Positions 2,012 through 16,850 of a DNA stretch of 64,000 nucleotides are shown piece after piece; positions within the stretch are counted from its first letter, which is position 1; each line of letters starts with the position of its first letter. The notes beneath the pieces are model-generated. The model ran no database searches. It worked only from the letters and a program-made list of their open reading frames with translations, and was not told where the DNA came from. This DNA is from a virus, in the IMG/VR virus record IMGVR_UViG_3300030107_001040, positions 37,656 through 101,655 of that record. One strand, written 5' to 3'. Both the position numbers and the translations under genes were made by a program.

Positions 2012-2032
2012 AAAGGAGGAAACTAAAGCAAT

Positions 2033-3339: not shown

Positions 3340-3342
3340 ATA
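3335..3342 (+). promoter_or_regulatory. Late promoter (T4-type), AATAAATA
   Basis: AATAAATA at the end of the preceding gene, 18 bases before the ATG at 3361. It fits the T4 late consensus TATAAATA and the relaxed cyanophage form. No -35 box is expected for this class. Confidence 0.5.
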
Positions 3343-3360
3343 TAGAAAAGTAGTAATCTT

Positions 3361-4317
3361 ATGAGTCAATTACAAACTGGTGGATTAGGAGGAATCGCTC
3401 AAACACTGAATCAAGTTACAGTTCCCGCAGGACATAATTTGGTAATTGATGGTGATATACTTCATCATAATGGTAATGGAGCATTTACGATTCCTGCTGG
3501 TACAACAGCCCAGAGACCAGGAAGTCCAAATAGGGGCGATATGAGATTTAATACTTCTGATGATGCTCTTGAAGTTTGGACTGGAACTGATTGGAAACAA
3601 TATGGTATTGCTTTAGGTACTAGTTCTGGTAATCCTGCAGAATCTGCTGCTGCTATTCTTGCTAATGATGCTAGTGCAACTGATGGTGTTTACTGGTTAA
3701 GTCATTCAGGAGGATCGGGAGCATATCAAGCATATTGTGATATGAGTAATGGTGGTTATATATTAGTTGGTAAGGTATCATCTTCACCTGCTGATACATC
3801 TAACCCTTGGTCATATAGTGGAGCAAGATGGACTGCAACTTCACCTCATAGTGAAGATGGTTGTCAGAGTACTGGTGCTGGTGATTCCCTAAATAGAGGG
3901 TATTATGAACATACTCTTGCCACAGGATTTAGATTTTCTATGAATACAGTTGGTAATGTTCTTTCAGTAGCAAGGACGGGAGTTACTCCTAGACAAGCAT
4001 TTACTGGAGCAGCATACAACACTAATAAGAGTAGAAGTGATTTTCTAAACTGGATACCTAATAGTAGTAGTGAGTGGAACAACCAACCTCATTGTAATAG
4101 AAACGGTTTTAACAGAACTGACTCTAGTGGTAGTGCTATGAGATATGGTCATACTATGAACAATGAGAATGAGTGTAACTCTAACGATTCTGCTATTGGA
4201 TTTGGTTGTTATACTAATAGCCAAAGTAGCAGTGGTGATAGAAATTGTGCTTGCGGTGGTTTCCGATGGAATGGAACTACAAGATGGGCATACAACGGTT
4301 GGATTTGGGTTAAGTAA
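3361..4317 (+). CDS. Tail fibre with divergent fibrinogen-like domain
   Basis: 318 residues. The stalk module IPAGTTAQRPGSPNRGDMRF is at about residues 42-61. The C-terminal domain opens with GVYWLSHSGG...AYQAYCDMSNGGYILVGK, the hallmark start of a fibrinogen-related domain. The middle and end differ from the two flanking paralogues: there is a long Asn/Ser-rich region with several Cys (CNRNGF, NENECNSND, CYTNSQ, CACGGFRW) that could form disulphides. It ends NGWIWVK, like the others. The next gene starts three bases after the stop. A role in host receptor binding is inferred. Confidence 0.65.
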   Translation: MSQLQTGGLGGIAQTLNQVTVPAGHNLVIDGDILHHNGNGAFTIPAGTTAQRPGSPNRGDMRFNTSDDALEVWTGTDWKQYGIALGTSSGNPAESAAAILANDASATDGVYWLSHSGGSGAYQAYCDMSNGGYILVGKVSSSPADTSNPWSYSGARWTATSPHSEDGCQSTGAGDSLNRGYYEHTLATGFRFSMNTVGNVLSVARTGVTPRQAFTGAAYNTNKSRSDFLNWIPNSSSEWNNQPHCNRNGFNRTDSSGSAMRYGHTMNNENECNSNDSAIGFGCYTNSQSSSGDRNCACGGFRWNGTTRWAYNGWIWVK

Positions 4318-4319
4318 CT

Positions 4320-5222
4320 ATGAGTATTATACGTGTAGGAACAATAGAAGGAACTTCTGATACTGACTATCATATTCAGATGGAATCTACTGCTGATATT
4401 AAAGTAGAGGGTGGATTAACTGTTGCAGATAGAGCGCAAGTTACTATCCCTGTAGGAACTGAGGCACAAAGACCAGGTACTCCTGCTGCTGGAATGATAA
4501 GAGTAAATACAGAGAATGATGGTGCATTTGAAGTTTATACTGGATCAGGATGGGCTCCAATACTAACACCACCACCACCCCCTGAAACTGGAGGCGGCGG
4601 TGGCGGCGGCGGAGGACCAGAAATAGGTTCTAATGGTAATCCTGCTACAAGTGGTATGGCATTATTAGCAGCAGGTAAGACCAGTGGAATATATTGGGTG
4701 AAACCTGGAAGTGAATCAGCATACGAAATGTATTATAATGGTAGTGATAACGGTGGAGGATGGATACTTTGTGCTCGTGTAAGAACTAATACTTGTCAGG
4801 ATCATGTAAATAATGGTGCTGTTCGTATCAGTGGAACTACTGGTCCGAGGACTGGAGACACTGATACATCAAAAATGCCAGATAGTTGGATCAATGCTTT
4901 GCGTTCAGCATCAACATATACTGGTCCTACTGCATATTGGTTAGAAGCAGATGGTTGGGGTGCAAATATGTTTGTTGACTCTAATGCTACTGTTGATTTA
5001 GTATCTTCTGCTAGTAATCAAAACGAAAGGACAAGAGTAACTACTTCATATGAAGGTGGTTTAAGTGATAGAGGTCCGAACTCTGGTACTAGAGGATTTG
5101 GTGACCACCATACTTCTGGTAATACATACTATGCGTGGGCTAGACACCCAGAGCAAGGTAATAATTGCGGATTTAGATCTGATGCTAGAGGTGCCTCACA
5201 TGGCAGACTCTGGGTTAAATAA
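4320..5222 (+). CDS. Tail fibre with fibrinogen-like C-terminal domain (second close paralogue)
   Basis: 300 residues. Stalk module IPVGTEAQRPGTPAAGMIRV at about residues 40-59. A flexible Pro/Gly linker (TPPPPPETGGGGGGGGGP) at about residues 82-99 separates stalk from tip. The tip runs GIYWVKP, YEMYYN, NGGGWILCAR, DSWINALR, YWLEADGW, GFGDHH, CGFR and LWVK, collinear with the tip of 2449-3339. The pair looks like a tandem duplication that kept the tip and diverged in stalk and linker. A perfect TATAAATA follows the stop. Confidence 0.7.
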   Translation: MSIIRVGTIEGTSDTDYHIQMESTADIKVEGGLTVADRAQVTIPVGTEAQRPGTPAAGMIRVNTENDGAFEVYTGSGWAPILTPPPPPETGGGGGGGGGPEIGSNGNPATSGMALLAAGKTSGIYWVKPGSESAYEMYYNGSDNGGGWILCARVRTNTCQDHVNNGAVRISGTTGPRTGDTDTSKMPDSWINALRSASTYTGPTAYWLEADGWGANMFVDSNATVDLVSSASNQNERTRVTTSYEGGLSDRGPNSGTRGFGDHHTSGNTYYAWARHPEQGNNCGFRSDARGASHGRLWVK

Positions 5223-5230
5223 TATAAATA
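5223..5230 (+). promoter_or_regulatory. Late promoter (T4-type), TATAAATA
   Basis: A perfect TATAAATA directly after the previous stop codon and 23 bases before the ATG at 5254. It should drive the Gly-rich adhesin gene late in infection. Confidence 0.65.
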
Positions 5231-5253
5231 ACTAACAAAAGACAGTTGCAACA

Positions 5254-6441
5254 ATGTCAGAAATAAGAGTTGATAAAATCAAAGGAACTAATGTCGGAGC
5301 TGGTGGCAAGGACATTCAGTTTGATGGTAGTGGTAATATAGTATATACTGGCAACTTGAGCAGTGTCGGAACTATTACAGCATCAAACGCTACACTTTCT
5401 ACACTATTAACAATTCCCAACTATGCTACTGCTAGTTTACCTGCTAGCCCTGCTGTTGGAACTATAGCGTATGATACTGATGAAACAGTAATGAAAGTAT
5501 ACACTGGATCTGATAATGGATGGGTCGGTGTAGGATCTGCTGCTGGTGGTGCAGCAACTGGAAGTGGAGGAAACGTAACAACTTCTGGTGGATATACCAT
5601 ACACCAATTTACAGGTAATGGAACATTTACTGTTGCAGGAGCATCTGGTTTAACTGTTGACGTTCTTCTCGTAGGAGGAGGTGGAGGCGGTGGAACCCGT
5701 AATGCTGGTCCTAATACTGGTGGAACTGATGGAGGTTCTGGTGGTGGTGCTGGAGGATGGGTTCAAGTTTCTGGACAAACTCTTGCAGAAGGAAGTTTCC
5801 CAGTCAATGTTGGTGGTGGAGGAACTGGATATAATAATCCAGGTCAACAACAACATGGAACCTCTGGTAGTCCATCAACCTTTAATGGTCTTGTAGCATA
5901 CGGTGGAGGTTGGGGTGCATCTGGACCTGGCAACCGACCTGGTGGACAAGGCGGATCAGGCGGTGGAGCAGGAGGAGGCGGTGGTTCACCTGGACAAGGT
6001 GGACAAGCAACTCAACCTGGCGCACCTGGTCAATCAGGTTCTAATGGTCATGGTCACGATGGTGGTCCTAATCCTAACCAAGCACCTTACACTGGATCTG
6101 GTGGAGGTGGTGCTGGCGGTGGCGGAGCACAAGGAGGTAACTCACGTCAAGCACCTGGAGGAAGTGGACGTGCTAGTACATATTCTGGCAGTTCAGTAAC
6201 CTACGCTGGTGGTGGCGGAGGTGGAGGTGGTTATCCTTCACCAACTAGAGGTGGTAACGGTGGACCTGGTGGCGGTGGTCATGGTGGTTCTTCACCTCAA
6301 AGATCAGGAGATGGTAGAGGTGGTAATGGATCTGGAAACCGTGGCGGCGGTGGAGGAGGCGGTGCAGGAAGCAGTTGGCCTCAAGGTGGTGCTGGACAAG
6401 GTGGATCTGGTATCGTTGTTATTCGCTATCCAACCCCTTAA
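5254..6441 (+). CDS. Glycine-rich tail adhesin
   Basis: 395 residues. The N-terminal 85 residues form the fibre stalk seen in neighbouring genes (LPASPAVGTIAYDTDETVMK...GWVGVG). A short beta segment follows (GYTIHQFTGNGTFTV, then VDVLLVGGGGGGG). Residues about 145-385 are extremely Gly-rich, with runs of five to nine Gly separated by short loops. The end GGSGIVVIRYPTP is typical of phage Gly-rich domains. Known Gly-rich adhesins of T4-like phages (gp38 type) pack polyglycine II helices and expose loops that touch the receptor; a similar fold is inferred. The 3' end overlaps the convergent carbamoyltransferase gene by 4 bases. Confidence 0.7.
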   Translation: MSEIRVDKIKGTNVGAGGKDIQFDGSGNIVYTGNLSSVGTITASNATLSTLLTIPNYATASLPASPAVGTIAYDTDETVMKVYTGSDNGWVGVGSAAGGAATGSGGNVTTSGGYTIHQFTGNGTFTVAGASGLTVDVLLVGGGGGGGTRNAGPNTGGTDGGSGGGAGGWVQVSGQTLAEGSFPVNVGGGGTGYNNPGQQQHGTSGSPSTFNGLVAYGGGWGASGPGNRPGGQGGSGGGAGGGGGSPGQGGQATQPGAPGQSGSNGHGHDGGPNPNQAPYTGSGGGGAGGGGAQGGNSRQAPGGSGRASTYSGSSVTYAGGGGGGGGYPSPTRGGNGGPGGGGHGGSSPQRSGDGRGGNGSGNRGGGGGGGAGSSWPQGGAGQGGSGIVVIRYPTP

Positions 6442-8045
6442 ATTAAGACTTCATAGTCAGGAAAATATATATGATCTATTTCAGAATCTTGTAAGGTTCT
6501 GACAGCATCTTCAGGAGTTTCTACAATACATTTACCAGCAAGGTTAAATGATGTATTGAATAACACAGGAACTCCTGTTTTTTCATGGAATTTTTTAATT
6601 AGATCATAGAAATGTTTGTTCTGTTCTCTAGTTACTGTCTGAACCCTACATGTAGAATCGATGTGAGTGATTCCAGGTAAATTTTTGGTCAATGTACTTA
6701 CAGCATACATCATAAAAGGACTTTCTTTTAGTCCACGCATATCAAAATATTCATCTGCATACTCTTGTAACACTGCACCAGCAAAGGGTCTAAAGTGTTC
6801 TCTCTTTTTAATTCTGTTTATCTTATCCTTTGCATTAGGATCACGTGGATCATATAGTATAGATCTATTACCTAATGCTCTTGGTCCTGCTTCAGATCTC
6901 TTTTGGAATATAGCAACAACCTTTCCATCTACTAATAGATCAGCAACTTCATCAACAGTAGTAGACCATAGGTTTGGTAGGAAACCAACTTCTCTTTCTG
7001 GTCCTAGGTATAGACTGGTGAGTTTTCTTTTAGTAGTATCACCCGTTTCTTTATGCCACATGTATTTGGCAGCACCAATAGATGTTCCTGCATCACTTGA
7101 TACTGGTTCAATATAAAGGTTCACATCTTTAGGAAGGATACTTAGATAATAATAGTTTGCTACACAATTAAGAAAGAAACCACCAGACAGACATACGTTT
7201 TTCTGTCCAGTTAATCTAATCATATCTAAGATGTATTGTCCTACATGTTCTTGTGTTTGTTTCTGTAGAGTATAGGCAAGATCACACTTACTTTGAAAAT
7301 CTAGTACAGTATAATTGACCCCAGTTTCGAGCAATGTACTTCCAATGTAGAATATTTCATTGTTTATGAAACCATCCTTGTATATTTCTATTGGTAATTC
7401 CTTTCCATAAGATGCCATACCCATTACCTTTCCAGCATCTAGTTCATGGAAACCATATAGCATGGAGAGTTTCTGAAATGCTAATGCTTCTCCAATATTA
7501 TTGGATATAACTAACTCATCAAACCTATTGTTTGCTTCAAATGGTACAGCAACATGCTTGTCAACAGTTACAAAATCTGCTGGATATGATCCAATATATG
7601 TTGTTGTTAGTTCTCTTCCATAGGTTCCTTTCATAAAATGATCTCCTATTAAAGGATAGTCAGAACCCATACCATCCTTTACAATACATAATGCTTCATC
7701 AAATCCAGAGTTATAGAAGGCATGAGCAGCATGTAACTTATGATGTGATAGAGAGAGATCGTGAACCTTTGTATCGTATTTGTTTTCTTTTGTTTTTACA
7801 TATAAACTATAAGCATCATCATCAATAAAACAATCTGCTGGAGTCAGTTTACCAACACCAGCAATACATATATTATCTAAGTCACTTGTATCTAATTTCT
7901 GAAGACATTGGAAAGGAAAACCATCATATTTTCTACCCGATAGTCTCTCGTTCTCTAGGTGGTAGACAAATTCACCATTCTGTAGTAGAGTGGTAGCAGA
8001 GTTATGGACACGACTTATTCCTAAATTTCTCACGTTCTTATTCAT
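6438..8045 (-). CDS. Carbamoyltransferase (NodU/CmcH family)
   Basis: 535 residues, full length for the family. The N-terminal Kae1-like domain begins LGISRVHNSATTLL and carries the metal-site histidines in SLSHHKLHAAHAFYNSGF (about residues 97-114). Then come GMASYGK, CLSGGFFLNCVAN and EPVSSDAGTSIGAA. The C-terminal domain has EAGPRALGNRSIL (about residue 385), FRPFAGAVL and VPVLFNTSFNLAGK. These enzymes transfer a carbamoyl group from carbamoyl phosphate to a hydroxyl of a sugar, antibiotic or nucleoside. It is the only gene on this strand and overlaps its convergent neighbour by 4 bases. Its neighbours are eight oxygenase-like genes, suggesting joint tailoring of a surface glycan, metabolite or nucleotide; the substrate is unknown. 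Confidence 0.9.
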   Translation of the reverse strand: MNKNVRNLGISRVHNSATTLLQNGEFVYHLENERLSGRKYDGFPFQCLQKLDTSDLDNICIAGVGKLTPADCFIDDDAYSLYVKTKENKYDTKVHDLSLSHHKLHAAHAFYNSGFDEALCIVKDGMGSDYPLIGDHFMKGTYGRELTTTYIGSYPADFVTVDKHVAVPFEANNRFDELVISNNIGEALAFQKLSMLYGFHELDAGKVMGMASYGKELPIEIYKDGFINNEIFYIGSTLLETGVNYTVLDFQSKCDLAYTLQKQTQEHVGQYILDMIRLTGQKNVCLSGGFFLNCVANYYYLSILPKDVNLYIEPVSSDAGTSIGAAKYMWHKETGDTTKRKLTSLYLGPEREVGFLPNLWSTTVDEVADLLVDGKVVAIFQKRSEAGPRALGNRSILYDPRDPNAKDKINRIKKREHFRPFAGAVLQEYADEYFDMRGLKESPFMMYAVSTLTKNLPGITHIDSTCRVQTVTREQNKHFYDLIKKFHEKTGVPVLFNTSFNLAGKCIVETPEDAVRTLQDSEIDHIYFPDYEVLI

Positions 8046-8054
8046 AACTACATA

Positions 8055-8060
8055 ATTATA
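8055..8060 (-). promoter_or_regulatory. Possible -10 element for the carbamoyltransferase
   Basis: Read on the minus strand this is TATAAT, about 9 bases before the ATG at 8045. The spacing would give a very short leader. No convincing -35 was found. It is the only visible candidate in the 31-base gap between this gene and the divergent oxygenase. Confidence 0.3.
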
Positions 8061-8076
8061 ACACGAATTTTTTAAT

Positions 8077-8631
8077 ATGGCATATCAGACAATGTGGTTT
8101 GATACTGAGATACCAGAAGACCTCGTTGATATTATAGAGAGGGAGATCAGTCATTATGAGGATAAATCTAATGCTGCTTCAATTTCTAGTGGTATAGATA
8201 AAGAGATCAGAGATAGTAGAACTGCTTGGATCAGTGACAACCATTGGGTACCTGGTCTTTGTATGTCCTATATTTTAAAGGCAAACAAGGACAATTTCCA
8301 GTATGATATTACTGGTATAGATGGTGGTGAGATGCAATACACTATCTATGAGGAAGGTATGTTTTATGATTGGCATCAAGATGCTGGTGTTGAAGCATTA
8401 GAAAATGATGCAGTAAGAAAGTTATCAATCATTCTTCAGTTGTCTAATCCTGAAGATTATGAGGGTGGAGAAGTGGAACTAATAAATGAATCAGGTAATC
8501 CATATTTCGTTCCTAAGAAGCGTGGAACATTAATTGTATTTGATAGTAGAACTAAGCATAGGGTTAAGGAAGTCTTTAGTGGTAAGAGGAAATCATTAGT
8601 CGGATGGGTTGTTGGACCTAGGTGGAAGTAA
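8077..8631 (+). CDS. 2-oxoglutarate/Fe(II) dioxygenase (PKHD/prolyl-hydroxylase-like)
   Basis: 184 residues. The iron-binding triad is clear: H100 and D102 in DWHQD and H161 in TKHRV. The 2-oxoglutarate-binding basic residue lies in GKRKSLVGWVVGP. The layout (N-terminal helices, double-stranded beta-helix core, GGEVEL) fits the PKHD-type hydroxylase group. It hydroxylates an unknown substrate using O2 and 2-oxoglutarate. It is the first of three coupled oxygenase genes and starts 31 bases from the divergent carbamoyltransferase. Confidence 0.85.
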   Translation: MAYQTMWFDTEIPEDLVDIIEREISHYEDKSNAASISSGIDKEIRDSRTAWISDNHWVPGLCMSYILKANKDNFQYDITGIDGGEMQYTIYEEGMFYDWHQDAGVEALENDAVRKLSIILQLSNPEDYEGGEVELINESGNPYFVPKKRGTLIVFDSRTKHRVKEVFSGKRKSLVGWVVGPRWK

Positions 8632-9167
8632 TGTTTCATATTCCTTTATACCATTATAAAGTTCAGGACTGGGAGCGAAAGCAAGATAAATTACTTGATT
8701 TGTATTGTGACATTGCTTCAGACTTAGAGAACTGTAATGATGAGTTGTCTGACGTTTATACTGACTACTTTAATAACTATGGTAAGACTAGATATAAGAA
8801 TTTTGTTGTTGATATATTACGTGATGAACTAGGTAGGTTTCAAGATGAGGAACAGTTATACAAACCATTTGTAGATGAGATGTGGATACAGAAATATGTT
8901 GAAGGATCTTTCCATACTCCTCATAATCATGGTCAATTAGGATTTAGTTCAGTATTATACGTTAAATTTGATGCCAATGTACATACTCCTACACGATTTA
9001 TTGCACCATTCCCCGATATTCGTGGTAATATATTAGAGCATTCACCAGAAGTAGAAGAAGGATCTATAGTATTTTTTCCATCCATGTTACACCATTACGT
9101 CTTACCAAATGAAGCAAAAGATGTTAGAATAATACTCTCCATGAATATTCGGGAGGGTAAAGACTAA
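8631..9167 (+). CDS. 2OG-Fe(II) oxygenase family protein (Oxy_5-like)
   Basis: 178 residues from the ATG that overlaps the previous stop (TAATG); an in-frame GTG at 8622 is less likely. Motifs: WIQKYVEGSFHTPHNHG with the HxH metal pair, SSVLYVKF, then EEGSIVFFPSMLHHYVLPN with the distal histidine, and RIILSMNIR at the end. This pattern is that of small phage 2OG-Fe(II) oxygenases. The substrate is unknown. The gene is coupled on both sides by TAATG overlaps, so it is one operon with its neighbours. Confidence 0.75.
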   Translation: MFHIPLYHYKVQDWERKQDKLLDLYCDIASDLENCNDELSDVYTDYFNNYGKTRYKNFVVDILRDELGRFQDEEQLYKPFVDEMWIQKYVEGSFHTPHNHGQLGFSSVLYVKFDANVHTPTRFIAPFPDIRGNILEHSPEVEEGSIVFFPSMLHHYVLPNEAKDVRIILSMNIREGKD

Positions 9168-9748
9168 TGCAGATAGAGAAAGGTCAATGGAGTTTGATCC
9201 AACTGAATAACCTAGTTGATGTTCGTGGTATTGTTGAAGAACCCCCAAAAGATAGAGGTAAGTTTGGATATGATAAGAAAGGACGGTTAAACTCTTGGAT
9301 AGAGGAAGGACAAGTAGCAGGTAGTCTTGCTAGATATAATCATCCTAAGTTTAAAGAACTTCATACATGTGTTATGGAGATGGTTGAACAGGTAATCCAT
9401 GAGAAATTATATCCAACATATTATTTTGATAGATTCTATTTTAGAGGACAAGAATTAAAGAGACATAGTGATAGAGGTTCATGTGAGATTAGCGTCTCTA
9501 TGCACATATCAACTAATGCAAAATACCCTTGGCCGATATACTTTGAAGTAGACAATACCGTAAAAGAATTAACATGTAAACCTGGAGATGCGATACTATA
9601 TAAAGGGTGTGAGTTAGATCATTGGAGAGAACCTTTAAAAGGTCCATCTGATACTTACTTTCACCAAATATTCTTCCATTATGTTAGGGCAAATGGTTAT
9701 TACCTACAACATGCCTATGACACATGTGTAGAAGATACTGCTAAATAG
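9167..9748 (+). CDS. 2OG-Fe(II) oxygenase-like protein
   Basis: 193 residues. H100 and D102 lie in LKRHSDRGSCEISVSMHIS. The distal part GDAILYKGCELDHWREPL supplies H152, and FHQIFFHYV forms a late core strand. The GDAILY-type turn followed by a histidine matches prolyl-4-hydroxylase-like folds seen in many cyanophages. Neighbouring oxygenases overlap it. Substrate unknown. Confidence 0.75.
   Translation: MQIEKGQWSLIQLNNLVDVRGIVEEPPKDRGKFGYDKKGRLNSWIEEGQVAGSLARYNHPKFKELHTCVMEMVEQVIHEKLYPTYYFDRFYFRGQELKRHSDRGSCEISVSMHISTNAKYPWPIYFEVDNTVKELTCKPGDAILYKGCELDHWREPLKGPSDTYFHQIFFHYVRANGYYLQHAYDTCVEDTAK
9741..9747 (+). promoter_or_regulatory. Late promoter, CTAAATA
   Basis: CTAAATA overlaps the preceding stop codon, 24 bases before the ATG at 9772. 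This variant of the T4 late box also occurs at 19148. Confidence 0.5.
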
Positions 9749-9771
9749 TACTATTAAAAGACCCGATTTCG

Positions 9772-10140
9772 ATGGCACATTACGCACAATTAGATGAAAA
9801 TAACAATGTCATTTCTGTCCGTCTTTTGGATGATTTCTATGAAATGAATGACATTGGGGAACTAGATGAAGAGAAGGCAATCTGCCTTCTTCAAAAGGAG
9901 AATGGTAGAGAAACCATTTGGAAGAAAACTTCATATAGTGGAAAAACGAGAGGCAAGTTTGCTTCTGTAGGTGGAACATACCATGCAGCAACAGATGAGT
10001 TTAGAGATCCTAAACCATACAAAAGTTGGGTGTATGATGATGACGCAAACCAATGGAAACCACCAATTCCAAGACCAGGAGTCTTATGGGATTGGGATGA
10101 GGAAAATTTAAAATGGGTTGAGGAAGAACAAGACACATGA
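9772..10140 (+). CDS. Conserved cyanophage-type protein of unknown function
   Basis: 122 residues, acidic and Trp-rich. It begins MAHYAQLDENNNVISV and has WKKTSYSGKTRGKFASVGG, PYKSWVYDDDANQWKPP and a Trp/Asp/Glu-rich tail. I recognise the general pattern as common in marine T4-like phages next to fibre or collar genes, but no function is known to me. A late promoter precedes it and the next gene overlaps its stop (ATGA), so a virion or assembly role is plausible. Confidence 0.55.
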   Translation: MAHYAQLDENNNVISVRLLDDFYEMNDIGELDEEKAICLLQKENGRETIWKKTSYSGKTRGKFASVGGTYHAATDEFRDPKPYKSWVYDDDANQWKPPIPRPGVLWDWDEENLKWVEEEQDT

Positions 10141-10478
10141 AACCAGTTTATGAATGGGTCGCATTTGACTCAGCGATTTCGTTATTAAGACCTAAAGCAA
10201 AATGGTCATTAAATCATGGAACTCTTGAGTGGCAAGATCCTAGACCAATGCCAACATTAGAAGAAATCCAAGATACCATTAAAAAGATTAAAGATTTTGA
10301 AGAGAGTATAGATTATATTCTCTTACCAGAGCAACAGGAAGAACAACCTGATCTTGCTCAAGAAGATGTGACTCATGGTATTAAACCTTATGATGATTCT
10401 GACATGTCAGGAGGTGGACCAGATGGATTACAAGGTAAGAGTGGAGTTCCACCAACAGGGTGGCATGTTCCACAATAG
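10137..10478 (+). CDS. XkdW-like / tail-fibre accessory protein
   Basis: 113 residues. The first half has a short beta region (WSLNHGTLEWQD) followed by PMPTLEEIQDTIKKI, the pattern of small XkdW-type phage tail proteins in which a Trp strand is followed by P-T-x-E-E. The C-terminus is Asp/Gly/Pro-rich and probably flexible. It overlaps the previous gene by 4 bases and precedes a tail-collar fibre, which supports a tail-assembly role. Confidence 0.45.
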   Translation: MKPVYEWVAFDSAISLLRPKAKWSLNHGTLEWQDPRPMPTLEEIQDTIKKIKDFEESIDYILLPEQQEEQPDLAQEDVTHGIKPYDDSDMSGGGPDGLQGKSGVPPTGWHVPQ

Positions 10479-10486
10479 TATAAATA
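10479..10486 (+). promoter_or_regulatory. Late promoter (T4-type), TATAAATA
   Basis: A perfect TATAAATA two bases after... the stop of the preceding gene ends at 10478; the box begins at the next base and lies 25 bases before the ATG at 10512. AAGGAGT at about 10492 can serve as ribosome binding site. Confidence 0.65.
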
Positions 10487-10511
10487 ACCGTAAGGAGTTT
10501 AAATATCATCC

Positions 10512-11141
10512 ATGTCTCAAATTAATGCGGGGACTCTAAACGTCACCACGACAACTTATGCAGATAGCACTTCACAAACAAGTGGTTCTATTTCTGGTTT
10601 AATTACTGGATCTCCTTCTAATGGTGACTCAGTTCAGTACAATGGATCCGCATGGGTTCCTGCTGCTGTATCAGGAGCACCAGTTGGTGCTATTTTTGCT
10701 TATGCAAAGAACACACCGCCAACTGGATTTTTGAAGTGCAATGGTGCATCAATTAGCACCTCTACATATTCTGCTTTACATACAGTTATAGGTACCACTT
10801 TTGGTGGATCAGGTAGTAACTTTAATGTTCCTGATCTTAGAGGGGAGTTTATCAGAGGATGGGATGATGGTAGAAATGTGGACAACGGAAGAAATTTTGG
10901 ATCCACTCAGGGTGATATGGTAGAGGAGCATAGGCACTGGATCTCATCTATGGCAACTGACGACAGAAACATCACTGGTACTGGTGGTAACGGTCAGGAA
11001 TATGGTTTAGTATCTGACGCTGGTGGTTACTCTGCAAATGACCCTAATAAGTCAACTGGTCGTTATACGAGGAATGACCCTAGCGGTAATGGAGAAACTC
11101 GTCCTCGTAATTTAGCACTCATGTATATAATCAAGTATTAA
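10512..11141 (+). CDS. Short tail fibre with phage tail-collar domain
   Basis: 209 residues. Residues about 55-118 are a classic tail-collar domain: PVGAIFAYAKNTPPTGFLKC, then GASISTSTYSALHTVIG and FNVPDLRGEFIRGWD. A receptor-proximal loop region rich in Gly and Asn follows, with EEHRHW. The end ETRPRNLALMYIIKY is the usual C-terminal signature. The N-terminal 50 residues are a short stalk. T4 gp12-type collar fibres bind the host surface irreversibly; a similar role is inferred. Preceded by a perfect late promoter. Confidence 0.85.
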   Translation: MSQINAGTLNVTTTTYADSTSQTSGSISGLITGSPSNGDSVQYNGSAWVPAAVSGAPVGAIFAYAKNTPPTGFLKCNGASISTSTYSALHTVIGTTFGGSGSNFNVPDLRGEFIRGWDDGRNVDNGRNFGSTQGDMVEEHRHWISSMATDDRNITGTGGNGQEYGLVSDAGGYSANDPNKSTGRYTRNDPSGNGETRPRNLALMYIIKY

Positions 11142-11143
11142 TC

Positions 11144-11605
11144 ATGGCATCAGGAAATTTAGACATATTAGTTTATCACTATGACCCAGTGAGTTACATC
11201 TATCAGGAACTATGGGAACCTGCGGATGAGTCTCCATTGGAACCTGGTAAATATTTGGTTCCAGCATTTGCTACTACAGTATGTCCACCACCTATAGAAG
11301 AGGGTTGGCAAGCAAAATGGATTGGTGACCACTGGGAACTCTCAGAAAAAAGATTAGAAGATGATCCAACAGTAACAAATGTAACCTATCCTTTTGAGGA
11401 TATTACACCTGAGAGACAGTTAAGAGAAACAAGAAGAGGTAAGTTAAGATCTAGTGATTGGACACAACTTCCAGATGTACCTTTAGATGCTAAACAAAAA
11501 GAAGCATGGGGTAAATATCGTCAGGAATTAAGAGATCTTCCTTCTCAACAAACAGCAGAAGATATTGAACTAACTAATATTGTTTGGCCAAATCCACCCA
11601 CATAA
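11144..11605 (+). CDS. Tail-assembly-chaperone-like protein
   Basis: 153 residues. The N-terminal half reads YHYDPVSYIYQELWEPADES then LEPGKYLVPAFAT and AKWIGDHWEL, as in tail fibre assembly proteins. The C-terminal half has RRGKLRSSDWTQLPDVPLD and AWGKYRQELRDLPSQ, the signature of the phage tail assembly chaperone family. Such proteins help fold or trimerise the fibre encoded upstream, here the collar fibre, from which it is separated by two bases. It directly abuts the next oxygenase gene. Confidence 0.75.
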   Translation: MASGNLDILVYHYDPVSYIYQELWEPADESPLEPGKYLVPAFATTVCPPPIEEGWQAKWIGDHWELSEKRLEDDPTVTNVTYPFEDITPERQLRETRRGKLRSSDWTQLPDVPLDAKQKEAWGKYRQELRDLPSQQTAEDIELTNIVWPNPPT

Positions 11606-12148
11606 ATGTATTTTTTTCGTTATTGGATCAACGATCCACTCCTTGAAAAAATTAAAGAAGAAGTCAATGAAGCAAAGGATACTTATGATTCTCTAGTTAG
11701 TAAAGAGAAGCATAATATCAGCACTTGTGGTAGTAAACAATATGATTTGAGTCCGAAGGTTGCTTCAGATAAATTAGTTCAGACTAACAAGACTTTAAAA
11801 GAAATAATAAAAGACTCTTTAGATAAAGAGGTATTCTACAAAACCGCTTGGAGTGTTATAGGCACAAAGGGCGGTTATCATACTGTACATAATCATAATA
11901 ATTATGTTAATGGTGCATTTGGTCAGACTACTGATAAAGATATATGCACTGTATTATATTTGGATGTTGAACCAGAAGAGAGACCTTGGGAACAAGGCAC
12001 ATTTTTCTATTGGAAGGATAACACCTTCCATGAGGTAGAACCTAAGTCAGGAGATCTATTGGTATTTCCTGCCGATCTATATCATGGAACCTATCCTCAA
12101 TCAGCAGAGACTAGATGGACATTGAACATTGACTTTGGAATAAAATGA
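11606..12148 (+). CDS. 2OG-Fe(II) oxygenase family protein (Oxy_5-like)
   Basis: 180 residues. Metal-site region GGYHTVHNHNN, strand TVLYLDVE, and GDLLVFPADLYHGTYPQ with the distal histidine, followed by RWTLNIDF with the 2-oxoglutarate-binding Arg. The substrate is unknown. It begins a second block of four overlapping oxygenase genes (11606-13836), each overlapping the next by 4-11 bases, so they are probably translated as one coupled unit. Confidence 0.75.
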   Translation: MYFFRYWINDPLLEKIKEEVNEAKDTYDSLVSKEKHNISTCGSKQYDLSPKVASDKLVQTNKTLKEIIKDSLDKEVFYKTAWSVIGTKGGYHTVHNHNNYVNGAFGQTTDKDICTVLYLDVEPEERPWEQGTFFYWKDNTFHEVEPKSGDLLVFPADLYHGTYPQSAETRWTLNIDFGIK

Positions 12149-12696
12149 AACCTATATTTTATAATGACTTCTACTTCCAATACAGGATGCCTTTCTTTGA
12201 TAAGTTATTGGAAGCAATACCAGAAGATAATTTTGATGAGAATTTTACATGGGGTGATCTCTGTAAGATAAACAGAGTATCCTTAGATGCTGAGGACTAT
12301 AGAGATCTATTACTTCAACCATTACATCAATTAGGTTCACAGTTAGGGATTGACTTTGATGCTCAGATACTACACCCTTGGATGAATGTATATGGTGAGG
12401 GAGATTTCCAAGAGGTTCACTACCATGACGACTGTGACATAGCGTCAGTTATATTTCTAAATGATGGTCCAGATTTTGCTAAGTTCTATTTCTGGGATTC
12501 AAATCACACAGCATTTACAAAACCTTGGATTAAGATAATCACTAAGATGAAGATGAGTAACATATACTATCCTGAAGTCAAAGCAGGTGATATAATAATG
12601 TTCCCATCTCATACCTATCATGGTGTTACGCCACATAAATCAAAAGAGAAGAGAAGGACTCTTAGTTTTAATACGGTGATTACGAATGTCAACTGA
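12145..12696 (+). CDS. 2OG-Fe(II) oxygenase family protein (Oxy_5-like)
   Basis: 183 residues. The metal region is GDFQEVHYHDDCDIASVIFL, the distal turn is AGDIIMFPSHTYHGVTPH, and KRRTLSFNTVI provides the basic residue. The order and spacing match the neighbours at 11606 and 14925, but the proteins are clearly divergent, so this is an old family expansion rather than a recent duplication. Overlaps its upstream neighbour by 4 bases (ATGA). Confidence 0.75.
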   Translation: MKPIFYNDFYFQYRMPFFDKLLEAIPEDNFDENFTWGDLCKINRVSLDAEDYRDLLLQPLHQLGSQLGIDFDAQILHPWMNVYGEGDFQEVHYHDDCDIASVIFLNDGPDFAKFYFWDSNHTAFTKPWIKIITKMKMSNIYYPEVKAGDIIMFPSHTYHGVTPHKSKEKRRTLSFNTVITNVN

Positions 12697-13228
12697 AGTT
12701 CATGTAATACCAGACTTCCTCTCCAAAGAGGAGTGTGAGTGGTTCTCTGCATTCCATAAGGTTATGTGGAGGTATCATGGTGTGACATTCTCTGATCGTA
12801 AGATCCTTAACGTTAATCAAATGATTGATTATCTAGCAGATGAGAAGGCATACAACAGCACTGATCCATTAAAGAAAATATTAGCAGATATTGCTTGTAA
12901 TATTCGTAAGTATGATGAGAGAGCATATCCAAACTATAGTCACATAACTGGGTGGGTAGCACCCATAAGACAACCAATGCACTTTGATTTTCCACAACAC
13001 GCATGGACATCTATAATCTATTTGAATGAGGATTTTGTAGGTGGTTCAACTATAATAGAAGATCAGAACATACAACCAGAGCAAGGCATGATGGTCTTGT
13101 TTGAGGGTTGTAAGTTGAATCATGGTGTAGAAAATGTAACGCATGGTACTAGATATACTATCTCTACGTGGTATAAGAGTTTCATGGAGGACAACCAGTC
13201 CTACCTTTATCAGATTCAGAACAAGTGA
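12686..13228 (+). CDS. 2OG-Fe(II) oxygenase (prolyl-4-hydroxylase-like)
   Basis: 180 residues. H99 and D101 (QPMHFDFPQH), H146 (CKLNHGVENV) and R156 (GTRYTISTWY) give a complete catalytic set. The beginning VIPDFLSKEECEWF is the usual N-terminal helix of the P4H-like class, and YLNEDFVGGSTII is the core strand pair. This is the P4H type, unlike the two genes before it, so at least two oxygenase subfamilies are mixed in one operon. Confidence 0.85.
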   Translation: MSTEVHVIPDFLSKEECEWFSAFHKVMWRYHGVTFSDRKILNVNQMIDYLADEKAYNSTDPLKKILADIACNIRKYDERAYPNYSHITGWVAPIRQPMHFDFPQHAWTSIIYLNEDFVGGSTIIEDQNIQPEQGMMVLFEGCKLNHGVENVTHGTRYTISTWYKSFMEDNQSYLYQIQNK

Positions 13229-13836
13229 TAATAGATCTATTCCCTACTTCAGTATATGTTGATGAGTTTAGTCTCACTGATACTGAGAGGGATTTTTTAT
13301 TGTCTGTTCCCCTTAATAGAAATGATGATGACGTAGCGTCAGTCAGTTCTACTAGATTGAATGAAGAGGAGGGATACCAGAGTTTTTTAAGGAAGGTTGA
13401 CCAGCATGTGTACGAGTATGCTTTTAATATAATGAAGTTGGATCCTCAGTATGGTTTAAAATGTCATGGTGCATGGGTCAATAGGAATGATACAGGAGAT
13501 AGAACAAACCCACATCACCACTCTAACTCATTGATTAGTGGTGTGTATTATATTGATGTAGAGGCAGAGTCACAAGGAGCAATAGACTTTACTGATGAGA
13601 AATGTGGTCCATTTGGTAAGTTCTTTACTCTTCTCAAGTATACTGAGCAGGAGATCAGGAACTCTCACATATCTCAGATCAAGGTTAAAAATGGTATGAT
13701 CCTGCTGTTCCCATCTATCTTGAAGCATGGTGTGGCAATGAATAGATCTCTGACTCCACGTTACACAACAGCGTTTGATTATATGATTGAAGGTCAGGTC
13801 AGTGGGTGGGTTAATAGAATGGACGTGACACTTTAA
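13225..13836 (+). CDS. 2OG-Fe(II) oxygenase family protein (Oxy_5-like)
   Basis: 203 residues from a GTG that overlaps the previous stop (GTGA). The first residues MIIDLFPTSVYVDEF are typical of this family, whose members often begin with a short IFPTPVY-like strand. Metal region TNPHHHSNSLISGVYYIDV; distal turn GMILLFPSILKHGV; late strand RYTTAFDYMI. It is the last gene of the second oxygenase block. Substrate unknown. Confidence 0.75.
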   Translation: MIIDLFPTSVYVDEFSLTDTERDFLLSVPLNRNDDDVASVSSTRLNEEEGYQSFLRKVDQHVYEYAFNIMKLDPQYGLKCHGAWVNRNDTGDRTNPHHHSNSLISGVYYIDVEAESQGAIDFTDEKCGPFGKFFTLLKYTEQEIRNSHISQIKVKNGMILLFPSILKHGVAMNRSLTPRYTTAFDYMIEGQVSGWVNRMDVTL

Positions 13837-13865
13837 CGACTGTCCAATGGTCAATGTACTTAATC

Positions 13866-13876
13866 TGTGCTATAGT
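13866..13876 (+). promoter_or_regulatory. Extended -10 promoter (TGTGCTATAGT)
   Basis: TATAGT at 13871-13876 preceded by TGC, 34 bases before the GTG at 13911. No good -35. The same TGCTATAnT pattern occurs before several early genes in this window. Confidence 0.45.
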
Positions 13877-13910
13877 TGACAGGTATTGAAACAGGAGCAA
13901 TTTTTGAACA

Positions 13911-14180
13911 GTGCCACAATTTACATTAGTTGCCGTTGACGAGGACGGTGTATGCACAACCTCTAAAGAATTTGAAACCGTATTTTTAAATGATGCAGTT
14001 GAATACTATGGTGATTTTCTTCGTGGTGTGGGATATGAGTTTGATGAACTCAGTGTCTCTGCATCTATTGGAGAAGTTCCTGAAGAGGAAATCAACATTG
14101 TCAAATCTGATAATGGTCCAGCATTAAAAGCGAAGGACTCTGCATACGTTGAACAGTATCGTCAAAACGGTGCTGATTGA
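13911..14180 (+). CDS. Small conserved phage protein, unknown function
   Basis: 89 residues, acidic, starting at GTG with a GGAG about 13 bases upstream. It begins MPQFTLVAVDEDGVCTTSKE and has YYGDFLRGVGYEFDELSV, a pattern I associate with T4-like cyanophages. No catalytic motif is visible. It opens the early-type gene block after the second oxygenase operon. Confidence 0.55.
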   Translation: MPQFTLVAVDEDGVCTTSKEFETVFLNDAVEYYGDFLRGVGYEFDELSVSASIGEVPEEEINIVKSDNGPALKAKDSAYVEQYRQNGAD

Positions 14181-14197
14181 TACCGAACACTGGGTTC

Positions 14198-14226
14198 TTG
14201 ACATTAAGAGAACCTTGTGTTACTAT
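14198..14226 (+). promoter_or_regulatory. Sigma70-like promoter
   Basis: TTGACA at 14198-14203, a 17-base spacer, then TACTAT at 14221-14226. The next ATG is at 14265. A perfect -35 and ideal spacing suggest transcription by host RNA polymerase early in infection. Confidence 0.65.
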
Positions 14227-14264
14227 ATAAAAATGTAGTTCAGTTTTTTCTACAAGACATACAC

Positions 14265-14462
14265 ATGGGCAAGACATTCAGGCGAGGTGGTAGCGAACAA
14301 GGTTACTACTATGGCGGAAAATCCCTTCGTGACAAGAGGCAAAAAGGTACCAATCGTTCTTCATTCAGAGAGGAGTCTTATGACTACGATAGATCCAAAA
14401 AAGGTAACAACAAGTCCAGAGACCAGCGAACCTATGATGAATTTGAAGGAGGAGTTACGTGA
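14265..14462 (+). CDS. Small basic protein, unknown function
   Basis: 65 residues from ATG. Strongly charged: MGKTFRRGGSEQGYYYGGK, KSLRDKRQKGTNR, then SRDQRTYDEFEGG. It is rich in Arg, Lys, Gly and Tyr and probably disordered; nucleic-acid binding is possible but unproven. It lies 38 bases downstream of a strong promoter. The +1-shifted frame overlapping it (14311-14535) is also open. Confidence 0.5.
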   Translation: MGKTFRRGGSEQGYYYGGKSLRDKRQKGTNRSSFREESYDYDRSKKGNNKSRDQRTYDEFEGGVT

Positions 14463-14535
14463 AGATTATGATGAGATTGAGTACGATGATGGATCGTATG
14501 CTGACATAGAAATAGACTACACAACACAATATTAA
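14311..14535 (+). CDS. Small acidic protein overlapping the previous gene in another frame
   Basis: 74 residues from the ATG (MAENPFVTRGK); an in-frame GTG lies at 14287 and a later ATG pair at 14434-14439. The C-terminus is very acidic (REDYDEIEYDDGSYADIEID). Its stop overlaps the next start (TAATG), which supports translation of at least the 3' part. Most of the gene overlaps the basic protein at 14265-14462 in a different frame. Either two proteins are encoded by the same DNA or only the last 34 codons are used. Confidence 0.4.
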   Translation: MAENPFVTRGKKVPIVLHSERSLMTTIDPKKVTTSPETSEPMMNLKEELREDYDEIEYDDGSYADIEIDYTTQY

Positions 14536-14735
14536 TGCCAAGTAAAGATCAGAGAACAATAGATGACAATGAGTCCAAAGACCAGAAATGGAACCGAGGA
14601 CTTGATTTGTACATTGAATCTATTCATAAAGCAGACCACTCTTTGCGTGGATGCGCTCACAATCAGAAATGTTACGTTGAATTGATGGAAGTTCGTGATA
14701 ATATATTAGAGTATGCCAAGACCCTACGGAGATGA
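14535..14735 (+). CDS. Small protein, unknown function
   Basis: 66 residues, charged and predicted mostly helical. It has two Cys (GCAHNQKC) at about residues 39-46. The start overlaps the previous stop and its own stop overlaps the next start (ATGA), so it belongs to a coupled run of small genes. Confidence 0.5.
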   Translation: MPSKDQRTIDDNESKDQKWNRGLDLYIESIHKADHSLRGCAHNQKCYVELMEVRDNILEYAKTLRR

Positions 14736-14935
14736 TTGGAATCCACTCTGCTATATTGACAAGACAACAAAAACTGATAGTGAAGGATGCGCTGATAACT
14801 TACGTCTGTCAACTACAGAAGCAATTCTTTAGAGACAACGATATTCCTTTTGATGAATACACACAGCGTATGCAGGAAATTGACGACATCACTGACAAAT
14901 TACATTTGAAGGAACTCTACAAATATGACTATTGA
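14732..14935 (+). CDS. Small helical protein, unknown function
   Basis: 67 residues with heptad-like hydrophobic spacing (LTRQQKLIVKDALITYV, then YTQRMQEIDDITDKLH). No enzymatic motif. It overlaps the oxygenase downstream by 11 bases. Confidence 0.5.
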   Translation: MIGIHSAILTRQQKLIVKDALITYVCQLQKQFFRDNDIPFDEYTQRMQEIDDITDKLHLKELYKYDY

Positions 14936-15572
14936 AATGTTCTGTCCTCGTTGGTATTATTGTGGGTCAGTCCCAGAAGATAACCAACAAGAGATAAAAG
15001 AACTCTTTGAGGAATTTTTATCTATTGATAAGAATTTCATTAATCCTGATGATTTGAATGGAGAGTTACTCACTTCATACGGTTTACCTACAAATCAGAC
15101 AGCACCTTGGACTGACTGGTTAGGGTTGATTAAACCTTGCTTGACTGAAATGGTTGAGCAGTTGAAACCTAAGTTAGATATTGAGATAGTACCGCAAGAA
15201 GCATGGTGTAATAGGTATGATAAAGGACATTATCAGGAGTATCACTGCCACTCTGTTCAGCACTGCAACCTAGCAGCAGTATACTTTTTTAAATTAGAAG
15301 AGGATAAGTGTCCTTACTTCAAATTCTATAATAATCAACACGCACAATATAAGATGAGTGGGTTGGCAGATACGTTTGAGATACCAACGGATGCTACTGT
15401 TACGCCAAGAGTTAGTGAAGGTGATCTAATAGTATTCCCTGCTCACTATCCTCATTTGGTATCACCTAATAAAAATGGAAGTGAAAGGATAACGTTTAGT
15501 GCTAATTTTGATGTTGTACCAGCGAAGAGAGTGTCACATGGCAGCACTGGAAAGGACATGGATCTATTATAA
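14925..15572 (+). CDS. 2OG-Fe(II) oxygenase family protein (Oxy_5-like)
   Basis: 215 residues. Metal-site region GHYQEYHCHSVQHCNLAAVY, distal turn EGDLIVFPAHYPHLVSPN, then RITFSANFDVVPA. The core matches the Oxy_5-like genes at 8631, 11606, 12145 and 13225. It is separated from the main oxygenase block by about 1.1 kb of early-type small genes. A later in-frame ATG (14937) is possible. Substrate unknown. Confidence 0.75.
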   Translation: MTIEMFCPRWYYCGSVPEDNQQEIKELFEEFLSIDKNFINPDDLNGELLTSYGLPTNQTAPWTDWLGLIKPCLTEMVEQLKPKLDIEIVPQEAWCNRYDKGHYQEYHCHSVQHCNLAAVYFFKLEEDKCPYFKFYNNQHAQYKMSGLADTFEIPTDATVTPRVSEGDLIVFPAHYPHLVSPNKNGSERITFSANFDVVPAKRVSHGSTGKDMDLL

Positions 15573-15595: not shown

Positions 15596-16075
15596 ATGAC
15601 TTTAGAATTTAACAAGGTATACTCATTTAAGGTTGAGCACCTATTCCATCCTCAGTGTCCTAAGAATTACGTCAATTCTATGGTCAAGAAGATACAGACA
15701 GATGCTAGGACATCATCTCCTATCATCACTTCATTTGTATCAGAGCAGTGGTTCTGTGGTCTTGAGTATGTTGATGAGAAGTATCGTGACTTCGTTGGTG
15801 GTGGTTATAATATAGAGAAGAAGATGTTTGGTAGATACGGTTCTAAGTTCTGTCCTTCCTACATGGTAGGATCAGGTAGAACTATTGATCCTGAGAAGTC
15901 ACTTAAGATATGCAAGGATAATGAGTTGGTTTACTTGCTTGCTGATGCTAACGAGTTTCCTAATGTGTATCTCACATTCGTTGATGGTATTGAGTTGCAT
16001 AAGCGTCACGCTTCATGTTCTATAGGTTACAGTAACAAGTGGAGACAATTTTATTTTAATCGTGATGTTGTATAA
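15596..16075 (+). CDS. Unknown protein coupled to a DNA methyltransferase
   Basis: 159 residues, not recognised. GGAG lies about 8 bases before the ATG. The middle is aromatic and Gly-rich (FVGGGYNIEKKMFGRYGSK); later parts include VYLLADANEFPNVYLTFVDG and a Cys near the end. No clear PD-(D/E)XK, HNH or methylase motif. The 3' end overlaps the methyltransferase start by about 10 bases, so the two are co-translated. A cognate nuclease, specificity factor or inhibitor are all possible; none is demonstrated. Confidence 0.5.
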   Translation: MTLEFNKVYSFKVEHLFHPQCPKNYVNSMVKKIQTDARTSSPIITSFVSEQWFCGLEYVDEKYRDFVGGGYNIEKKMFGRYGSKFCPSYMVGSGRTIDPEKSLKICKDNELVYLLADANEFPNVYLTFVDGIELHKRHASCSIGYSNKWRQFYFNRDVV

Positions 16076-16850
16076 CGAGGACTGCTTAACTGGGATGAGT
16101 AAACTTGATGATAGGTCAGTTGATGCTATCGTCACATCCCCACCATATAACCTTAATATCAAATACAGCAAGTATGAGGACAAGAAACCGAGAGATCAAT
16201 ATATCAGTTGGTTGCAGGATATATTTACTGAGTGTAAGAGAGTATTAAAGGATAATGGTCACTTGTTCGTTAATATGGGGTATTCAAATATTGATCCTTG
16301 GGTAGGTATTGAGGTGGGTATGTCACTCAGGAACACATGGCACCTACAGAATCATATTGCATGGGTCAAATCAATCCATGTCAATAATAAGACAAGTGGT
16401 CATTTTAAACCTATCAACAGTAAGAGGTATTTGTGTCCTACATGGGAGCATCTATTCCATTTGACTAAGAGTGGTGATGTGGAAATTGATAGACTGTCTG
16501 TTGGTGTCCCTTACGAATACTATGAAGCGAATATTCGTGGTAAGAATACAAAGGAGAATAAACCTAACCTAAGAGACAAGGGTAACAGTTGGTTTATACC
16601 TTATGAGACTGTGAACAGTAAAGATTTACGTGGTAAGCATCCTGCTACCTTCCCAGTTAAATTAGTTGAGGACTGTATTAAGATGACTGGTATTACTTCT
16701 GGTATAGTATTAGATCCTTTCATGGGAACTGGTACTACTGGACTAGCAGCACTCAACCTTGGATGGGATTATATTGGATATGAGATAGATGAGGATTATA
16801 TTAAGTTTTCCTTAAGAAGACTAGATCAAGGGTTATTATCCATATTATAA
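16065..16850 (+). CDS. DNA methyltransferase (N4-cytosine/N6-adenine, beta-type order)
   Basis: 261 residues from ATG (a GTG lies one codon upstream). Catalytic motif IV TSPPYNL is at about residues 24-30 and the S-adenosylmethionine motif DPFMGTGTTGLAAL at about 217-230, so the order IV then I is that of beta-class methylases. NGHLFVNMGYSN and HIAWVKS are the usual intervening strands. The TSPPY form occurs in both N4-cytosine and N6-adenine enzymes. A short target-recognition region is probably around residues 105-190. Likely roles are protection of phage DNA from host restriction or marking of phage DNA. Confidence 0.85.
   Translation: MLYNEDCLTGMSKLDDRSVDAIVTSPPYNLNIKYSKYEDKKPRDQYISWLQDIFTECKRVLKDNGHLFVNMGYSNIDPWVGIEVGMSLRNTWHLQNHIAWVKSIHVNNKTSGHFKPINSKRYLCPTWEHLFHLTKSGDVEIDRLSVGVPYEYYEANIRGKNTKENKPNLRDKGNSWFIPYETVNSKDLRGKHPATFPVKLVEDCIKMTGITSGIVLDPFMGTGTTGLAALNLGWDYIGYEIDEDYIKFSLRRLDQGLLSIL

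Follow-up and report, generated by a model that had tools for sequence, protein, structure and literature searches.

The window analysed here is a 64,000-nucleotide stretch of viral DNA (positions 37656-101655 of the 101,655-bp virus record IMGVR_UViG_3300030107_001040, a fragment), and the nearest named relatives of the record are T4-like cyanophages of the Kyanoviridae. Its fibre region carries, next to a run of fibre genes, a carbamoyltransferase (CT) and eight genes for 2-oxoglutarate (2OG) oxygenase-like proteins, ox1 to ox8 (Table 1), which are read below, tentatively, as part of a fibre-modifying module of cyanophages. A first-pass annotation had proposed the eight oxygenase-like genes, the CT, the collar fibre and the chaperone, and all were confirmed by open reading frames (ORFs) and Pfam matches or, for ox3, by phrog_2954 and a structural model. 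The division of the oxygenases into at least two subfamilies also holds, with PF13640 at 8077 and 12686 and PF13759 at 8631, 11606, 12145, 13225 and 14925. The limits proposed for the region, 6438-15572, do enclose these genes but omit the glycine-rich (Gly-rich) fibre at 5254-6441 and the preceding fibre genes of the conserved block. Adjacent genes of the cluster abut or overlap (gaps of -1, -1, 0, -4, -11 and -4), and the start of ox2 at 8631 is an internal ATG in a frame that the ORF caller opens at a GTG at 8622. The whole record holds about ten 2OG genes; the two outside the window are further PF13640 oxygenase genes (G000:12408-12635 and G000:32201-32455), and relatives also have a similar 2OG gene just upstream of the fibre block.

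Table 1. Genes of the fibre-side cluster, with positions in the window and the matches that identify them.
Feature	Position	Strand	Evidence
Three tandem fibre/adhesin-like genes	2449-3339, 3361-4317, 4320-5222	+	PHROG 1959/1325, Pfam, alignment
Gly-rich fibre/adhesin-like protein	5254..6441	+	PF21722 Gly_rich_2 2e-11
CT: O-carbamoyltransferase, NodU/TobZ/NovN family	6438..8045	-	PF16861 7.5e-60, PF02543 4.6e-15
ox1: PKHD/P4H-type 2OG oxygenase	8077..8631	+	PF13640 4e-16
ox2: Oxy_5-type	8631..9167	+	PF13759 5e-11
ox3: 2OG-fold oxygenase	9167..9748	+	phrog_2954 2e-62, AlphaFold2 model
Two small conserved genes	9772-10140, 10137-10478	+	phrog_7759, phrog_21526; syntenic in relatives
Tail collar fibre	10512..11141	+	PF07484 4e-21
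Tail fibre assembly chaperone, paired with collar fibre	11144..11605	+	PF16778 2.6e-18
ox4: Oxy_5-type	11606..12148	+	PF13759 2e-9
ox5: Oxy_5-type	12145..12696	+	PF13759 9e-17
ox6: PF13640-type	12686..13228	+	PF13640 8e-11
ox7: Oxy_5-type	13225..13836	+	PF13759 3e-20
ox8: Oxy_5-type	14925..15572	+	PF13759 1e-11

The same gene order recurs in P-RSM4, S-CAM8 and S-SSM5, each read gene by gene, and in several IMG/VR contigs: a tail fibre, a small fibre gene, three fibre genes and the Gly-rich fibre, followed by the CT, which is encoded on the opposite strand, and then by ox1, ox3, the pair of small genes and ox4-ox7. In S-TIM4 and S-MS29, the CT and further members of the module are found at matching places. 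The CT had been called divergent, which is not strikingly the case, as it is 72-78% identical to the same-place CTs of these five phages. The six syntenic oxygenases (ox1, ox3, ox4-ox7) are 37-66% identical to their orthologs, while oxygenase paralogs within the window reach at most 29% identity. Median ratios of nonsynonymous to synonymous substitution (dN/dS) lie at 0.08-0.17 for ox1-ox7, that is for seven of the eight oxygenases, and at 0.145 for the CT; the ratio of 0.42 for ox8 comes from three pairs only. Because the paralogs are so far apart, the orthologs conserved and the ratios low, the sequences argue for a set of genes that is old and maintained under purifying selection, as the first-pass annotation had supposed, and the identities rule out a recent amplification of the oxygenases. 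Compared with the fibre-side CT/2OG module of these Kyanoviridae, the window adds ox2 between ox1 and ox3, the collar fibre with its chaperone ahead of ox4, and ox8 farther downstream. The best matches of ox2 in the relatives are only 25-30% identical, pointing either to an insertion in this virus or to a loss in the relatives; the collar fibre has no match in loci L006, L007, L066 and L070; and ox8, outside the conserved module, has its best relatives in S-RIM2 and S-RIM12. Just downstream, at 16062-16850, lies a likely DNA methyltransferase (TSPPYN motif), and methyltransferase genes are likewise found downstream of the module in relatives.

A loss of catalytic residues from most copies, which had been named as grounds for abandoning the first-pass annotation, was not seen: HxD/E...H is retained in ox1, ox3 and ox6, and HxH...H...R in the five Oxy_5 copies. 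In the first of these classes the HX(D/E)...H iron triad is accompanied by a distal Arg (uncertain in ox3), and the double-stranded beta-helix fold is indicated by the PF13640 match of ox1 and ox6 and by a model and Foldseek search for ox3. The residues of ox1 are H100xD102, H161 and R171, with HxD...H kept in 23 of 23 relatives; among proteins of known structure, ox1 comes closest to PKHD hydroxylases and to the EF-Tu prolyl hydroxylase (PDB 3dkq, 2e-7; 4iw3, 3e-5). In ox3, H100xD102 and H152 are found and HxD...H is kept in 27 of 27 relatives; R154 is invariant, yet at an unusual spacing, and its role as the 2OG-binding Arg is uncertain. The AlphaFold2 model of ox3 (predicted local distance difference test score, pLDDT, 89; predicted template-modelling score, pTM, 0.87) matches 2OG oxygenases of the PDB in Foldseek, among them prolyl 4-hydroxylase (P4H) 4j25, with template-modelling (TM) scores of 0.60/0.63, and the collagen prolyl hydroxylase of PBCV-1 (vCPH, 5c5t; TM 0.55/0.58); AlkB structures are also among its fold neighbours. 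Motif and modelled fold together place ox3 among the 2OG oxygenases. They contradict the ferrochelatase label of its family (phrog_2954, phrog_3531), and ox3 has no Pfam match, thus no ferrochelatase domain. For ox6 the residues are H99xD, H146 and R156, its 34 relatives having HxD in 25 cases and HxE in nine, and a weak PDB match (E 1e-3) leads to prolyl 3-hydroxylase 1. A halogenase function, suggested by a match of ox6 to WelO5 (E 0.0014), was rejected as the HxD motif is intact, and the 'DNA endonuclease' label given to ox6 in relatives (phrog_2297/phrog_274) covers 2OG oxygenases such as ox6.

All five PF13759 (Oxy_5) copies, ox2, ox4, ox5, ox7 and ox8, score above the curated cut-off of the family and carry HxH...H...R, so that the 2-His-1-carboxylate triad is missing from this class, His replacing Asp. 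The residues are H95xH97, H160 and R170 in ox4 (10 of 10 aligned relatives), H92xH94, H159 and R170 in ox5 (13-14 of 14), H97xH99, H168 and R179 in ox7, and H107xH109, H177 and R188 in ox8 (14 of 14). For ox2, HxH...H is present in eight of eight aligned relatives, and the Arg, present in the window protein, falls under the conservation cut-off among them. Across 47 diverse PF13759 relatives the three histidines are the only fully invariant columns (HxH in 47 of 47), and the Arg corresponding to R179 of ox7 is also invariant in a 42-row alignment. The AlphaFold2 model of ox7 (pLDDT 89) has its best Foldseek matches in 2RG4 (TM 0.75) and 3BVC (TM 0.73), two uncharacterised bacterial PF13759 proteins which share the fold and the HxH...H...R pattern of the window enzymes; it also matches HygX, SnoN and PHD2, in keeping with a 2OG-oxygenase fold with a distal Arg. 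As such, a His stands in this family at the position of the iron-binding Asp of other 2OG oxygenases, all three His are predicted to bind metal, and a 2OG-oxygenase-like activity of the class is predicted rather than established. No paper describing the HxH site in PF13759 was found within the open literature library. In prolyl 4-hydroxylase the equivalent change from Asp to His (D414H) abolished activity (PMC2767507), and a motif that is invariant across a whole Pfam family while such a change kills a related enzyme presents a testable problem of metalloenzyme chemistry. A few more distant relatives of the Oxy_5 profiles have HxD (L068 13355-13909, L107 6274-6939, L098 11658-12311 and L141 20662-21216), and these may mark an evolutionary switch between two metal sites.

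The CT has the Kae1-like N-terminal and YrdC-like C-terminal domains and the metal-site His residues of the TobZ/NodU type, keeps the invariant HHxxH and GG/N motifs, and gives profile matches to 9s2t, 7xb6 and TobZ (3ven) in the PDB. Judged by its domains and motifs, it is a TobZ/NovN-type O-carbamoyltransferase, for which carbamoylation of a hydroxyl is predicted. The two-domain architecture and conserved motifs are shared with TobZ, NovN and GdmN, which tailor antibiotics, whereas a substrate can only be proposed for the phage enzyme. No close cellular homologs of the CT were found in a search of genome contigs. In two loci its reading frame is split into two overlapping ORFs, by a frameshift or a sequencing error (L029 4539-5934 and L030 1270-2686). 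The S-SZBM1 paper (PMC9146016) assigns the cyanophage CT to pyrimidine metabolism, and the pyrBI of the S-MS29 paper (PMC10436341) is probably the same gene. These names, together with AlkB among the fold neighbours of ox3, would suit a role in repair or modification of DNA or nucleotides, by AlkB-like oxygenases and pyrimidine carbamoylation. Such a role is very improbable, as the CT domains PF02543/PF16861 are TobZ-type, no aspartate or ornithine carbamoyltransferase was matched in Pfam, and the PDB profile search gave only TobZ/GdmN/NovN-type, HypF and Kae1-like proteins. Moreover, the sole nearby nucleic-acid genes are of methyltransferase and helicase type and lie downstream, repair-side 2OG genes form a separate set, and no link of the CT to nucleotide genes was found. 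The domain evidence (Pfam and PDB profile search) contradicts the aspartate carbamoyltransferase (PyrBI) label, and nucleotide carbamoylation by the CT was rejected on these grounds.

Fibre proteins are the candidate substrate to which the surroundings of the cluster point. The three tandem fibre genes (2449-5222) and the Gly-rich protein (5254-6441) have in common an N-terminal domain of about 90 amino acids, found by alignment, and the first of the three (2449-3339) has a weak Pfam match to Fibrinogen_C. The Gly-rich protein, of which 34% is Gly and whose syntenic orthologs are 64-70% identical, is a candidate substrate of the cluster enzymes. In five complete genomes, for which the fibre block was delimited and the genes were listed manually on the basis of search matches and annotations, 2OG genes lie no more than 6 kb from the block in 7 of 10 cases in P-RSM4, 6 of 9 in S-CAM8, 7 of 10 in S-SSM5, 7 of 14 in ACG-2014g and 6 of 10 in P-SSM7 (0.7-1.0 expected); in P-SSM7 the clustering holds though the fibre region lacks a CT. 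Furthermore, among interior, non-redundant loci fetched by the ox1 sequence alone, 13 of 16 have an ORF that is collagen-like or Gly-rich (18% Gly or more) no more than three genes away from the ox1 relative (5.0 expected, reached in 0 of 5000 shuffles). The CT directly adjoins a 2OG gene in 24 of the 33 loci that have one (6.7 expected; 0 of 2000 shuffles).

The best comparative hint that ox1 and ox3 hydroxylate fibre proteins comes from contigs in which the two are joined. Four contigs (L045, L046, L047 and L051) encode a fused ox3-ox1 protein, relatives of which occur in additional contigs. The run of genes with the fusion in L051 includes three PF13640 oxygenases and two fibre genes whose collagen Gly-X-Y tracts extend over 40 and 78 triplets without a break (Pfam Collagen 9e-39 and 6e-49). 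It also contains a GT2-methyltransferase, a second GT2 protein that matches DUF6445 weakly at its C terminus, and an epimerase resembling GDP-mannose dehydratase. The Gly-rich protein gene is what lies near the oxygenases in the window; a collagen tract is found instead beside the fusion in L051. The L051 run (49-11227), seen also in L045 and L046, is itself a compact candidate for a phage operon of collagen modification.

The reading favoured here is that the cluster belongs to a conserved cyanophage module which modifies receptor-binding fibres, a proposal that is quite possible and stops only a little short of probable. From the evidence described above on gene identity, fold (modelled in the case of ox3 and ox7), conservation of catalytic residues, synteny, selection and linkage, we infer its substrates, step order, timing and a target common to the enzymes as follows. 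The HxD enzymes ox1, ox3 and probably ox6, which have prolyl hydroxylase relatives, would hydroxylate residues of the adjacent fibres, in their Gly-rich or collagen-like segments, late in infection. The CT would add a carbamoyl group to a hydroxyl, either one made by an oxygenase or one on a fibre-borne sugar, drawing on carbamoyl phosphate and ATP by analogy with TobZ, and the HxH enzymes ox2, ox4, ox5, ox7 and ox8 may oxidise this substrate, or one linked to it, further. The fibre could thereby be stabilised, or its binding range varied. It is possible, though rather doubtful, that PF13759 comprises natural three-histidine (HxH...H) iron enzymes which marine phages combine with prolyl-hydroxylase-like enzymes and an O-carbamoyltransferase in a form of fibre modification new among phages.

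Several observations weigh against the proposed modification of fibres. Long Gly-X-Y tracts were not found in the fibres of the window itself, where the longest have 5-6 triplets. Under the linkage test applied to ox1, CTs are not associated with Gly-rich ORFs (10 against 11.4 expected), nor are the HxH oxygenases of CT loci (1 against 4.1) or, at low power, loci with ox3 alone (2 of 5 against 1.5 expected). As ox1 is linked while CT and HxH enzymes are unlinked, the test does discriminate, and the CTs and HxH oxygenases of distant loci may therefore act on another target. A T4-type late promoter-like TATAAATA motif stands immediately upstream of the Gly-rich fibre (5223-5230), another immediately upstream of the collar fibre (10479-10486), and a third at 18101; it counts in favour of the proposal that collar fibre, chaperone and ox4-ox7 follow the second motif without gaps. 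The window shows no enrichment of the motif, however (3 against 6.9 expected by chance), and late promoters, well placed as they are, provide only weak proof of co-expression. In addition, three of the five genomes counted for clustering, P-RSM4, S-CAM8 and S-SSM5, share the module by descent, and the clustering could also arise because genes are inserted with high frequency into the fibre region of T4-like phages, a known hot spot.

The hot spot might simply have gathered unrelated auxiliary genes, each oxygenase having its own target in host or phage and no common pathway existing. This would fit the absence of ox2, ox8 and the collar/chaperone pair from the modules of relatives, the 2OG genes found elsewhere (near uvsY/uvsW and uvsX in S-SSM5, for instance), and the description of the 2OG genes of S-SZBM1 as scattered (PMC9146016). 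It leaves unexplained why the order of CT, ox1, ox3 and ox4-ox7 is constant across several genera at 37-78% identity, why CT-2OG adjacency recurs in distant loci and why ox3 and ox1 are fused, and is considered unlikely. A single pathway of all nine enzymes, as first suggested, nevertheless stays conjectural, given these additions to the module and the different linkage of ox1 and of the CT and HxH enzymes.

The weakest link of the fibre proposal is that the CT and HxH enzymes of distant phages accompany sugar genes and not Gly-rich genes. In most loci a distant phage CT has a GT9 (heptosyltransferase)-like gene directly upstream, which passes the Pfam search at E 0.01 in 22 of 69, and by alignment consensus the GT9-like family makes up the majority of the preceding genes. 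This conserved gene (T4-GC 302) is found, for example, at L025 9021-9971, L068 8731-9978 and L069 8836-9975. Downstream lie 2OG, cytidylyltransferase, epimerase or similar genes, and a sulfotransferase is also among the neighbours. S-SSM7 and S-CAM3 have heptose-type genes beside the CT, an arrangement resembling a phage glycosylation unit adjoining tail fibres. The Gly-rich fibre was dropped as a universal partner of the CT, as distant CTs are preceded by the GT9-like protein and have no Gly-rich link.

This association with sugar genes makes a glycan of the host envelope a serious rival target, although on balance a somewhat unlikely one. The host cell envelope (lipopolysaccharide core or surface glycan) would then be carbamoylated by the CT at a hydroxyl of a sugar, and hydroxylated by the oxygenases at sugars or lipids, perhaps to prevent superinfection or to release progeny from debris, and the known relatives TobZ and NovN indeed use small molecules or sugars. 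Against this, the sequenced relatives with the exact module gave no Pfam GT9 match, in a search which also missed the divergent GT9-like gene of S-SSM7 and left that of S-CAM3 below the cut-off, and the full S-SSM5 annotation lists no glycosyltransferase. Similarly, the distant CT of S-SSM7 also adjoins tail fibre and fibre-assembly genes, and ox1 tracks genes for Gly-rich proteins. Of the three substrates originally suggested, sugar, nucleotide or fibre, the fibre is the best supported and the nucleotide is not supported, while sugar is suggested for distant CTs by their gene neighbours.

Cyanophage 2OG genes and CTs have been listed since 2010 (PMC3037559), and the roles proposed before for the 2OG genes are DNA repair and the depletion of 2-oxoglutarate to influence nitrogen signalling; no experimentally tested function of cyanophage 2OG oxygenases was found in the searchable literature. 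Under the drawdown model, put forward by Sullivan et al. in 2010 along with reported NtcA sites in cyanophage genomes (PMC3037559), the oxygenases would deplete 2-oxoglutarate and so tune host nitrogen signalling (NtcA). A single highly expressed enzyme would suffice for this, and the presence of eight enzymes with no more than 29% identity, their clustering beside fibres, the ox3-ox1 fusion and the link to the CT are left unexplained, which makes the model highly unlikely here. The available passages on S-SCSM1, a single cyanophage with 24 2OG oxygenases, like the window rich in divergent 2OG genes, tie these to host metabolism and contain no fibre link or HxH motif (PMC9602691).

For modification of fibres, the nearest viral parallel is mimivirus, which is reported to encode 2OG hydroxylases for its own collagen and also to glycosylate it (PMC9546862). 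The collagen prolyl hydroxylase of PBCV-1, which the model of ox3 resembles, is likewise a virus-encoded 2OG hydroxylase for virus collagen. Unlike both, the window comes from a phage and not from a virus of eukaryotes, has no long collagen tract, and adds a CT and several HxH oxygenases. The module itself was already present in public genomes, with its genes annotated singly and in part wrongly, as ferrochelatase, DNA endonuclease and probably PyrBI, labels that can now be corrected; the present analysis adds its interpretation as a single unit beside the fibres, the statistics on linkage and the finding of the HxH site.

To summarize, few accessory genes are as numerous in marine T4-like cyanophages as those for 2OG oxygenases. 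Finding most copies beside fibres, and one subfamily beside Gly-rich or collagen-like proteins, makes the open question of their role directly testable. If the proposal is true, hydroxylated fibres would constitute an enzymatic layer in phage-host recognition in the ocean, one that needs O2, iron and 2-oxoglutarate.

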